Source: Pseudomonas flavescens
GTDB lineage: Bacteria > Pseudomonadota > Gammaproteobacteria > Pseudomonadales > Pseudomonadaceae
Direction of reading: 5' to 3'
DNA: 64,000 nt
Assembly (NCBI RefSeq): GCF_013408425.1
Contig: NZ_JACBYV010000001.1
Coordinates: 5,084,001 to 5,148,000, forward strand
The notes beneath the pieces are model-generated. The model did not search any database, was not told the DNA's origin, and saw nothing but the letters and a program-made list of their open reading frames with translations. Position 1 is the stretch's first letter. Each line of letters starts with the position of its first letter. Below are positions 33,981 to 37,278 of this stretch, piece after piece. The position numbers and the translations under genes are program-made.

Positions 33981-35126
33981 ATGGAATTCGAAAAACTGTT
34001 GCGCCTGATGGTCGAAAAAGGCGGCTCCGATCTGTTCATCACCGCTGGCGTGCCGCCGTCGATGAAGGTCAACGGCAAGATCATGCCTGTGACCAAGACC
34101 CCCTTGTCGCCGGAAATGACCCGCGAAACCGTTCATGCGGTGATGACCGAGCAGCAGCGTCGGGACTTCGCCGAGAACCACGAATGCAACTTCGCCATCA
34201 GCGCCCGAGGTATCGGCCGCTTCCGCGTCAGTGCCTTCTATCAGCGCAACCTGGCCGGCATGGTACTGCGCCGCATCGAGACCAACATCCCGACGCTGGA
34301 TGACCTCAAGCTGCCGGAGATCCTCAAGAAGCTGGCGCTGACCAAGCGCGGTCTGGTGCTCTTCGTGGGGGCTACCGGTACCGGCAAGTCCACCTCGCTG
34401 GCGGCGATGATCGGCTACCGCAACAAGAACAGCAGTGGCCATATCATCTCCATCGAAGACCCGATCGAGTACATCCACCAGCACCAGAACTGCATCGTCA
34501 CCCAGCGTGAAGTGGGGATCGACACCGACTCCTTCGAAGTAGCGCTGAAGAACACCCTGCGGCAGGCCCCGGACGTGATCCTGATCGGTGAGGTGCGGAC
34601 CCGCGAAACCATGGACCACGCCGTGGCCTTCGCCGAGACCGGCCACCTGTGCCTGGCCACCCTGCACGCCAACAACGCCAACCAGGCGCTGGACCGAATC
34701 ATCAACTTCTTCCCGGCGGACCGGCAGAATCAGGTGTGGATGGATCTGTCGCTGAACCTCAAGGCCATCGTCGCCCAGCAACTGATCCCCACGCCGGACG
34801 GCAAGGGGCGTCGCGCGGTCATCGAGGTGCTGATCAATACGCCGCTGGCGGCTGACCTGATCCGCAAGGGCGAAGTGCATGAGCTCAAGGGCTTGATGAA
34901 GCGCTCCACCGAGCAAGGCATGCAGACCTTCGACCAGGCGCTGTACAACCTCTACAGCCAGGGCGAAATCACCTACGAAGATGCCTTGTTGTACGCCGAC
35001 TCGGCGAACGACCTGCGCCTGATGATCAAGCTCGGCTCGGAAACCGATGGCGAGCATCTGACCAGCATGTCCCAGGGGTTGTCTCTGGAAGTCACCGACG
35101 AAGATCCGGGGCGGCGTTTCCGCTGA
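33981..35126 (+). CDS. pilU: PilT-dependent retraction ATPase PilU
   Basis: PilU is a PilT paralogue that assists retraction and depends on PilT. The 381-residue protein has Walker A GATGTGKST at residues 130-138, the Asp box SIEDPIEYIH, Walker B ILIGEVRTRETM and the His box HLCLATLHANNAN. It ends in a longer C-terminal extension than PilT (ETDGEHLTSMSQGLSLEVTDEDPG). The last 35 bases overlap the 3' end of the convergent DUF4130 gene. Together with pilT it forms the usual pilT-pilU operon. Confidence 0.98.
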   Translation: MEFEKLLRLMVEKGGSDLFITAGVPPSMKVNGKIMPVTKTPLSPEMTRETVHAVMTEQQRRDFAENHECNFAISARGIGRFRVSAFYQRNLAGMVLRRIETNIPTLDDLKLPEILKKLALTKRGLVLFVGATGTGKSTSLAAMIGYRNKNSSGHIISIEDPIEYIHQHQNCIVTQREVGIDTDSFEVALKNTLRQAPDVILIGEVRTRETMDHAVAFAETGHLCLATLHANNANQALDRIINFFPADRQNQVWMDLSLNLKAIVAQQLIPTPDGKGRRAVIEVLINTPLAADLIRKGEVHELKGLMKRSTEQGMQTFDQALYNLYSQGEITYEDALLYADSANDLRLMIKLGSETDGEHLTSMSQGLSLEVTDEDPGRRFR

Positions 35127-36036
35127 TCGACGCCGGGTCTGTCGGGCTGCTGGGTATACCGCCCGGCACCTCTCGGGCTGTCGCTCGAATAGGCAGTACC
35201 TGCTCGGCGTCAGCCTGGATGCGTTTTCCAGGCCTGACCGCCACCGCCTGAGCCTGCCCATTGGCCTGGGCGCCTGCCCGGGCCTGGCTCATCAACCTTG
35301 GAATCAGCGGGCCTTCCGGCAGGTTGCGCCAGAAACGCACCGGCATGTTGGTTTCCAGCACGCTGCGATTGAGCCGAGCCGGGTTGAAGGTGCTGCCGTA
35401 ATAGGCCAGCCACATGGCTTCGTTGCGATCATCGGTGCCCTGCGCCAGTTGCTGCCAGTCGGGCGGGCAAGGACTGGCATGGTGCAGGTTTTCGCCGTCC
35501 CAGTACACGCCGTCGTCGGGTGTCGCGATCATCCAGGTCTGCCGACCCAGGCGTTCGGCGAAATGCATGCTGGCGCTGGCCAGGATGTCGTGCGCAGGCT
35601 CGTGCCAGGCCACCAGTTGCGGGCCTCCGGCCGTGGCGTCCCGCGGTTTGAAACGCAGAAACGCATGCAGATGGTGAGCTTCACGGCGCACGGCTTTGAG
35701 GCGCCCATGCAGTTCGCTGCCGTCGATATCTCCGGCCAGCATGGCGGCCTGATCGCCTGCGGCAACGCGCCAGAGAATGCGGTAAAGCAGCGCCCAGCGC
35801 TGGGGGCAGCGAAAGCGTGCAGCACTTTCCAGCTGGTCGAGTAGAGCGCGGGGCACGCGCACCGGGCGATCGCAGGCCACGGCCTGTTGCGGCTCGTCCA
35901 GCTGGCCGAACAGATCCTGATTCTCCTGGCTGTCCTGCACCCAGCTCAACTGGTGGGGCGCCAGGCCGCGGCGCAGTTGCGTCCTGGCGGCCTCACGCCA
36001 GCCAGCGAAGCTGCCATCGAAACGAACCTGGTGCAT
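35092..36036 (-). CDS. DUF4130 (TIGR03915-type) putative DNA metabolism protein
   Basis: This 314-residue cytoplasmic protein belongs to the DUF4130/TIGR03915 family, which is nearly always encoded beside the radical SAM protein described in the next entry and is sometimes fused to a UdgX-type uracil-DNA binding domain. Recognisable pieces are SFAGWREAARTQLRRGLAPHQLSW near the N terminus, HHLHAFLRFKP and MWLAYYGSTFNPARLN, and the ending RFWRNLPEGPLIPRL. No UdgX domain is present; a 60-residue low-complexity tail follows instead. The start ATG 36036 overlaps the upstream stop as TGATG; a GTG at 36042 is possible. Its 3' end overlaps pilU. Its role in DNA repair is inferred from association and from the LexA box. 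Confidence 0.8.
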   Translation of the reverse strand: MHQVRFDGSFAGWREAARTQLRRGLAPHQLSWVQDSQENQDLFGQLDEPQQAVACDRPVRVPRALLDQLESAARFRCPQRWALLYRILWRVAAGDQAAMLAGDIDGSELHGRLKAVRREAHHLHAFLRFKPRDATAGGPQLVAWHEPAHDILASASMHFAERLGRQTWMIATPDDGVYWDGENLHHASPCPPDWQQLAQGTDDRNEAMWLAYYGSTFNPARLNRSVLETNMPVRFWRNLPEGPLIPRLMSQARAGAQANGQAQAVAVRPGKRIQADAEQVLPIRATAREVPGGIPSSPTDPASISGNAAPDLRR

Positions 36037-37247
36037 CACCACAGCCCCATTTGCCGGGGAGGCTCGCTTAATTGCTGACGCAGCAGCAGGGATTCGCGAG
36101 TGGCCTGAAGCGGGCGGTAATCCTGGGTGACGATGAAGGGCTTGGCTTTCTCCAGAGCGCAGCGCAGGCGGCCGACGTCCTCGAAGCGAATGCGCTTCTG
36201 CCGTCGCAGGGCGACCAGACGCTGAGCGCTGAGTACACCGATGCCGGGGATGCGGGCGATCATGGTTACATCGGCGCGATTCAGGTCGACGGGAAAATGC
36301 TGGCGGTTGTTCAGTGCCCAGGCCAGCTTGGGGTCGATATCCAGGGCCAGGTTGCCGGGGCCGTCGAGCAGTTCGGCGGCCTTGAAGCCGTAGCCGCGCA
36401 TCAGGAAGTCCGCCTGATAGAGGCGGTGCTCGCGCAGCAGGGGTGGTGCTTCGAATGGCACGCTCTTGGGACTTTGCGGAATCGGGCTGAACGCCGAGTA
36501 GTAGACGCGCTTGAGGCGGAAGTCGCCATACAGCGATTGGGCGGTGTGCAGGATGGTGCTGTCATCGGTGGCGTCGGCGCCCACGATCATCTGCGTGCTT
36601 TGCCCGGCTGGCGCAAAGGCCGGCGCGCGTTTCTCGCTATCCGCCTCCTCGACCCCGTTGCGAATGGTGCCCATGGCCAGCTTGATCGGCGCCACGCTTT
36701 TCTCTGGTGCCAGGCGGATCAGGCTGCTTTCGGTGGGCAGCTCGATATTGACGCTGAGACGGTCGGCATAGCGGCCCGCTTCGGCAATCAGCTCCGGCGA
36801 TGCATCGGGAATGGTCTTGAGATGAATGTAGCCACGAAACTCGTGCTCTTCGCGCAGCAGTTTGGCGACCCGTACCAGTTGCTCCATGGTGTAGTCGGCC
36901 GAGCGGATGATCCCGGAGCTGAGAAACAGCCCGCTGATGCAGTTGCGCCGGTAGAAATCCAGGGTCAGCGTGACCACTTCCTCCGGCGTGAAGCGTGCGC
37001 GGGGCACATCGCTGGAGCGGCGATTGACGCAGTACTGACAGTCGTACAGGCAGAAGTTGGTGAGCAGCACTTTGAGCAGAGCGACACAGCGCCCGTCGGG
37101 AGTGAAGCTGTGGCAGATGCCCATGCCGTCCGTGGCGCCCATGCCGTTCTGGCCCTTGGAGCTGCGCTTGGGTGCGCCACTGCTGGCGCAGGACACATCA
37201 TATTTGGCGGCGTCGGCGAGTACGGTAAGCTTTTCGATCAGTTGCAT
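36036..37247 (-). CDS. Radical SAM protein, putative DNA modification/repair (TIGR03916-type)
   Basis: This 403-residue radical SAM protein has the cluster motif CLYDCQYC (Cys66, Cys70, Cys73; CX3CX2C). It also has a C-terminal helix-hairpin-helix DNA-binding motif (about 323-350, ARIPGIGVLSAQRLVALRRQKRI). A third Cys-rich spot lies near the N terminus (GICHSFTPDGRC). This combination is the hallmark of the family predicted to act in DNA modification or repair; the chemistry is unknown. It heads a two-gene operon with the DUF4130 gene. A LexA-type box lies 16 bases upstream of the start codon, so SOS induction is likely. Confidence 0.88.
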   Translation of the reverse strand: MQLIEKLTVLADAAKYDVSCASSGAPKRSSKGQNGMGATDGMGICHSFTPDGRCVALLKVLLTNFCLYDCQYCVNRRSSDVPRARFTPEEVVTLTLDFYRRNCISGLFLSSGIIRSADYTMEQLVRVAKLLREEHEFRGYIHLKTIPDASPELIAEAGRYADRLSVNIELPTESSLIRLAPEKSVAPIKLAMGTIRNGVEEADSEKRAPAFAPAGQSTQMIVGADATDDSTILHTAQSLYGDFRLKRVYYSAFSPIPQSPKSVPFEAPPLLREHRLYQADFLMRGYGFKAAELLDGPGNLALDIDPKLAWALNNRQHFPVDLNRADVTMIARIPGIGVLSAQRLVALRRQKRIRFEDVGRLRCALEKAKPFIVTQDYRPLQATRESLLLRQQLSEPPRQMGLW

Positions 37248-37262
37248 GGCGTGATCCGATAG

Positions 37263-37278
37263 CTGTATTTATATACAG
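37263..37278. promoter_or_regulatory. LexA-type SOS box upstream of the radical SAM gene
   Basis: CTGTATTTATATACAG fits the gammaproteobacterial LexA consensus CTG-N10-CAG, with the usual TA-rich centre. It lies 16 bases before the start codon of the radical SAM gene, which would let LexA block transcription. The divergent TM2 gene starts 108 bases away on the other side, so control is mainly of the radical SAM/DUF4130 pair. Confidence 0.85.

Follow-up and report, generated by a model that had tools for sequence, protein, structure and literature searches.

What does an operon that stands behind a LexA (SOS) box and pairs a radical S-adenosylmethionine (SAM) protein with a DUF4130 protein do for the cell that carries it? 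The operon in question occupies positions 35092 to 37278, on the minus strand, of a 64,000-nucleotide stretch of Pseudomonas flavescens (contig NZ_JACBYV010000001.1, positions 5,084,001 to 5,148,000; hereafter, the window). We know of no reaction for this pair, which is widespread (33 of 40 genomes searched in the genus and 39 of 249 genomes of the Pseudomonadota over the cut-off) and has LexA-type boxes of three motif lineages. Our preferred reading, to which we give a probability of about 0.5, is that the two proteins form an SOS-induced, clamp-tethered radical DNA repair pair. A likely role in DNA damage had been proposed in a first-pass annotation of the sequence and is supported here; a predicted clamp tag and extra cysteines in the radical SAM protein now open this orphan SOS operon to tests of docking on the clamp, of a second cluster, and of a lesion that builds up behind the replication fork.

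The LexA box (37263 to 37278), recognized by pattern match and kept in relatives, reads CTGTATATAAATACAG on the gene strand and CTGTATTTATATACAG on the plus strand. It was correctly placed upstream by the first-pass annotation, although 15 bases, not 16, separate it from the ATG of the radical SAM gene at 37247. This gene (36036 to 37247; 403 residues) was assigned from its open reading frame (ORF) and its match to TIGR03916 (rSAM_link_UDG, a putative DNA modification/repair radical SAM protein), which scores 549.3 bits against a curated cut-off of 343.5; profile match and alignment place the radical SAM CX3CX2C motif (C66, C70, and C73) at 37029 to 37052. The DUF4130 gene (35092 to 36036; 314 residues) was likewise assigned from its ORF and a profile match, to TIGR03915 (191 bits; cut-off, 112.25), and the DUF4130 domain proper lies at 35314 to 35805 (PF13566, residues 80 to 243 of a 316-residue ORF; 112.6 bits; cut-off, 27). 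Its ATG at 36036 overlaps the stop codon of the radical SAM gene (TGATG), and this ATG is likely the true start, rather than the upstream GTG of the 316-residue ORF, because close relatives start at the same place. Both the pairing and the overlap agree with what the first-pass annotation had described.

The case for SOS control rests on conservation of the box, which that annotation had proposed to look for in front of homologous operons. Within the genus, 30 loci were compared (3 matching genomes were left out), and all 30 carry CTGTN9CAG 13 to 20 bp before the ATG. Among 80 named loci, from Pseudomonas and its kin plus 20 betaproteobacteria, the same pattern occurs within 100 bp in 77, as opposed to 9 of 3,760 control blocks, and each of the other three (L075, L081, and L088) has a near-match; the two sets overlap in some genomes and do not count as independent. 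Of the 39 matching genomes in the phylum search, 4 belong to the same genus, and the loci of the other 35 were compared: 33 have a lineage-matched LexA box. All 27 loci that we assign to classes other than that of the window have GAACN7GAAC or GTTCN7GTTC, and 6 of the remaining 8 have CTGTN8ACAG, over backgrounds of 0.02 and 0.004 per 220 bp for the two box types. GTTC-N7-GTTC is given as the alphaproteobacterial direct repeat in PMC8565304. The same direct repeat (GAACN7GAAC/GTTCN7GTTC) is found at the named Paracoccus and Agrobacterium loci.

A third box type appears in human fecal contigs labeled as phage, of which eight matched and six were compared. Bacillus-type boxes (CGAACN4GTTCG-like) are present in four of the six (L192, L218, L219, and L220; not L216 or L217), as one or two sites with at most one mismatch that precede the matched start by 43 to 189 bp, and none of the four stretches has any other such site; we infer that the four contigs come from Bacillota. 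The two phylum-set loci that were found without a box are L150 and L166, and the L150 protein shares 61% identity with its Acinetobacter counterpart and 52% with that of the window; Acinetobacter is not known to have LexA. None of the box types tried was found at the Subdoligranulum, Bacteroides, and Acinetobacter loci or at L216 and L217, and a set of eight patterns, two of them reported for Bacteroidetes, gave nothing upstream of L150, L166, L188, L189, L190, L195, L216, and L217. As far as sequence comparison can establish it, a LexA box upstream of the radical SAM-DUF4130 operon is confirmed as real and conserved in lineage-specific form.

Counts within the window and the genome depend on how strictly the box is defined. 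The window has a single match to the tight pattern CTGTAN6TACAG, where 0.02 sites are expected and 2 of 100 shuffles reach one, and the 5.95-Mb genome has 6 exact matches, that of the window included. The first-pass annotation found the correct site with the loose pattern CTGN10CAG, but as evidence this pattern was dropped, there being no excess in the window (27 sites; 32.6 expected). Genome-wide, 65 sites have at most one mismatch to the tight pattern, as opposed to 61 for a reversed-pattern control, a frequency that is unconvincing alone. Nine other box sites of this genome were compared, of which five match exactly and four differ at one position. One exact box is shared by an SRAP gene and a umuD-type peptidase gene, and another stands at a DUF1654 gene; one-mismatch boxes are present at lexA, dinB, and yebG. 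At the sites in L003, L004, L005, and L009, no recognized SOS gene was found nearby (L005 was viewed without a family scan).

Some of these sites merit separate mention. The umuD-type peptidase and SRAP genes are divergent around their single exact box (L002:1344-2573, near C1:1866301). The box in L004 (C1:4893283-4893298) is identical in its letters to that of the window, and the sole ORF of at least 80 residues that starts within 250 bp of it and reads outward is 148 bp away and resembles an efflux periplasmic subunit. Just 3' of the exact box in L003 is a 117-residue ORF (L003:2048-2401) that has no Pfam or NCBIfam match and is possibly an unknown SOS gene.

What would place the radical SAM protein at replicated DNA is its C terminus. 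Bacterial proteins that dock on the beta sliding clamp typically do so through a peptide of the QL[SD]LF or QLxLxL type, and the radical SAM protein ends in QMGLW (residues 399 to 403; 36039 to 36053), a tail that, together with its QLxLF-type counterparts in relatives, is predicted to be a clamp-docking motif. Position 399 is glutamine in all 43 aligned proteins, which come from four named phyla plus a single gut contig. A loose form of the motif lies within the last 45 residues in 29/35, 7/7, 30/30, and 80/80 proteins of four partly overlapping sets, and in 7 to 10% of shuffled tails. A strict penta- or hexapeptide motif within the last 12 residues is present in 26 of 35 proteins versus 1 of 1,546 flanking ORFs (stop to stop, all frames), and in the window it picks out 1 of 87 ORFs, namely, the radical SAM gene. 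The other 9 of the 35 proteins end in looser variants, among them QLSLL, QMLLI, and QASLF, and both pentapeptide (QLSLF) and hexapeptide (QLSLGF, QLGFGF, and QLSLAL) tails are seen. DinB of the same genome ends in EQLDLFTPVES, the QLDLF of which fits as a positive control.

Two further features set the radical SAM protein apart. Three cysteines ahead of CX3CX2C, C20 (codon 37188 to 37190), C45 (37113 to 37115), and C54 (37086 to 37088), recur in 42 of 43 proteins, which suggests a second metal site. A structural model, for which 36 sequences with 70% or more identity to the radical SAM protein of the window were used, has confidence (predicted local distance difference test [pLDDT]) below 50 over residues 12 to 84, the stretch that holds these cysteines, and over the tail at 397 to 403. 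A radical SAM paralogue in Gemmatirosa (L191:4001-5176; 38% identity) is without the three cysteines and without a DUF4130 partner and retains QLSLW near its end; this one case suggests that the cysteines go with the function linked to DUF4130 and that the tail is the more ancestral feature. The second feature is a helix-hairpin-helix-like region (residues 319 to 358; 36174 to 36293): the first-pass annotation had named the motif outright, but its HHH_3 match is below threshold (24.6 bits; cut-off, 27), and the family profile matches ComEA-related and RuvA chains weakly (best E value, 0.015).

Of the 125 stretches searched for the DUF4130 partner, 121 contain it; the exceptions are L087, where the contig ends, the viral contig stretches L186 and L187, and L191. 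It is mostly adjacent to the radical SAM gene, and in L165 and L168 some 2.5 kb separate the two. Its structural model weakly resembles DHH/DHHA1 (RecJ and Cdc45) folds. Among 18 diverse proteins, 14 columns are invariant and none is Asp or His, so that the metal ligands of the DHH motif are not among them, and hhalign gave DUF4130 against RecJ 0.3%, no better than the 0.4% of a radical SAM control alignment. From residue 270 onward, the protein has a low-confidence and probably disordered tail (residues 270 to 314; 35092 to 35229), with pLDDT below 50 at 270 to 282 and 284 to 314, i.e., at all but one residue. The tail lengthens the protein to 314 residues, compared with 285 to 293 in its closest relatives.

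The first-pass annotation had noted a low-complexity tail and the lack of the UdgX domain that is fused to DUF4130 in some relatives. Profile search bears out that the window protein has no UdgX (TIGR03914) match, nor was one found elsewhere in the genome, whose single PF03167 match is Ung. In the phylum set, 22 of 35 downstream ORFs (four of the 35 being other than the DUF4130 gene) carry the UdgX motifs GEQPGDxE and [KRT]xR[IL]H (KRR[IL]H type), and 4 of 6 fused proteins tested pass the TIGR03914 cut-off. The domain is fused in all 20 betaproteobacterial named loci; among the other 60, 2 are fused (L050 and L051), 57 are unfused, and 1 is cut by a contig end. In the other two of the six, the Pseudomonas-type proteins P0010 and P0118, the fused domain falls under the cut-off and the GEQPGDxE and KRRIH-type motifs are lost, and by these counts UdgX is mostly lost in Pseudomonas and its kin. 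Since these bacteria nonetheless keep the pair and the box, UdgX is dispensable and the core function cannot need it; and with no uracil-DNA glycosylase (UDG) domain left in the window operon, uracil excision cannot be its core function. Two observations concern individual records: the source name of P0010, leucyl-tRNA synthetase, looks like an annotation error, and the UdgX part of a fused gene at L158:3356-4825 is seemingly out of frame relative to its relatives.

The mechanism that we propose for the repair pair begins at the box, through which LexA would repress the operon until DNA damage lifts repression. The QMGLW tag would then dock the radical SAM subunit on the beta sliding clamp at replicated DNA, and the helix-hairpin-helix region may also hold it on DNA. 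There, a 5'-deoxyadenosyl radical would serve to restore a damaged base or nucleotide or to take it out, perhaps assisted by a second iron-sulfur site formed from C20, C45, and C54. DUF4130 would probably present the substrate, as a noncatalytic subunit that binds DNA or nucleotides and has a DHH/DHHA1-like fold, a role to which the fold resemblance points weakly. In the many relatives with fused UdgX, this domain may add capture of uracil or abasic sites. That DNA is the substrate, and that the outcome is repair rather than modification, is what we infer from these features together. A lesion caused only by ultraviolet (UV) light is unlikely, because the pair is present in a Bacteroides and in human gut contigs. 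A more specific version is possible but tentative: an SOS-induced direct-repair radical SAM enzyme on the sliding clamp, distinct from spore photoproduct lyase, that has a second iron-sulfur site, is served by DUF4130 as a DHH-like subunit presenting DNA without catalysis of its own, and acts on an endogenous lesion shared by aerobes and gut anaerobes.

Other readings were weighed. The pair might modify rather than repair DNA under SOS control, with the radical SAM enzyme marking a base by an added group such as sulfur or methylthio and with UdgX, in relatives that have it, handling the product; we consider this unlikely. Rather unlikely, too, is a mutagenesis or lesion-tolerance cassette in which the two proteins change or hide lesions at the clamp and thereby let error-prone polymerases through, a reading favored by the resemblance of the clamp-type tag to that of DinB, by the LexA-type boxes at both the operon and dinB, and by a 2013 gene-context prediction that names DUF4130 a "predicted mutagenesis-related enzyme" (PMC3765255). 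Co-occurrence with ImuA does nothing for it, being uninformative: 236 of 249 genomes match because RecA relatives match. The radical SAM enzyme could instead modify its protein partner, DUF4130 or DUF4130-UdgX, which would then act on DNA. Radical SAM enzymes often have as substrate the protein product of a neighboring gene, and the near-constant pairing and overlapping genes would suit such a relationship, but the helix-hairpin-helix-like region and clamp-type tag place the radical SAM protein itself on DNA, and no Cys is found among the invariant DUF4130 columns, making this reading improbable. Finally, that the box arose by chance and that SOS control does not extend to the operon is very improbable and contradicted by the conservation: the loose pattern is no commoner than expected and the one-mismatch count is near its control, but chance does not explain a motif whose type switches with lineage, and the tight pattern is rare in the window.

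SOS regulation of what we take to be this operon type is not new, and it was less open than the first-pass annotation implied. We take COG4277 to be the TIGR03916-type radical SAM family, and PA0069, taken to represent the same operon, presumably belongs to the LexA regulon of Pseudomonas aeruginosa, a membership that the literature search did not bring up. The COG1573-COG4277 operon, probably the same two-gene system, is predicted to be under SOS control in Bacteroidetes, and the same source cites reports that such a UDG system is SOS-controlled in Verrucomicrobia and Alphaproteobacteria (PMC8565304). An unspecified radical SAM protein is listed in LexA regulons in two further papers (PMC7739468 and PMC9380542). 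The clamp-type tail, the three extra cysteines, and the DHH-like resemblance of DUF4130 were not met in the literature searched, with most subscription journals outside its coverage: no paper was returned for radical SAM with a clamp-binding motif, and PMC3765255, which was returned for DUF4130, does not mention a clamp-type tail in the part available.

The genomic neighborhood adds little. The first-pass annotation had seen a clue in the adjacent pilus retraction genes, but pilU lies in the stretch compared around the operon in only 14 of 80 named loci, all from Pseudomonas and near kin, and in 2 of 35 other loci, one at just 51% identity. The PilU/TM2 neighborhood was therefore rejected as a lineage-specific feature, and by this comparison the pilus-gene neighborhood is incidental. 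In the window, pilU (33981 to 35126) and the DUF4130 gene are convergent, and their 3' ends overlap by 35 bp (35092 to 35126); such an overlap also occurs in L042 and does not occur in L040, L041, or L078. A promoter and terminator scan gave 0 promoter-like sites and 1 terminator-like site, and shuffles give as many. PADLOC, which covers known anti-phage systems, returned 0 families for either protein at an E value of 0.01. Among viral records, 2 of 96 pattern-matched stretches encode a relative, and two Acinetobacter "phage" records also match; one stretch (L195, from the Acinetobacter phage MD-2021a record) looks like host chromosome, with glyS and glyQ beside the operon.

Among known systems, the closest is the TIGR03916/TIGR03915 pair itself: both window proteins exceed the cut-offs, in the usual order and with overlapping genes, but the window copy is without the fused UdgX and has a longer DUF4130 tail. 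UdgX captures uracil-DNA covalently and is fused to DUF4130, with its GEQPGDxE and KRR[IL]H-type motifs, in many relatives, unlike in the window protein and its genome. The COG1573-COG4277 operon, described as a putative UDG base excision repair system in PMC8565304, is probably the same LexA-controlled pair, differing in that the window copy retains no UDG domain. A search of the PDB by sequence returned nothing convincing for either protein. Lipoyl synthase and MiaB/RimO share with the radical SAM protein the radical SAM barrel and a set of N-terminal cysteines before CX3CX2C, cysteines that have known roles in those enzymes; the window protein has no sequence family match to them, and it has a helix-hairpin-helix-like region in place of the TRAM of MiaB. 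Spore photoproduct lyase (SplB) is likewise of the radical SAM class, with ties to DNA repair and SOS. No model of this lyase appears among the Pfam matches to an E value of 1 or the NCBIfam matches to 0.1, and the window protein differs from SplB in its helix-hairpin-helix-like region, clamp-type tail, and three extra cysteines. If the pair does repair DNA, bacteria would have one more radical-based repair chemistry in addition to that of spore photoproduct lyase.

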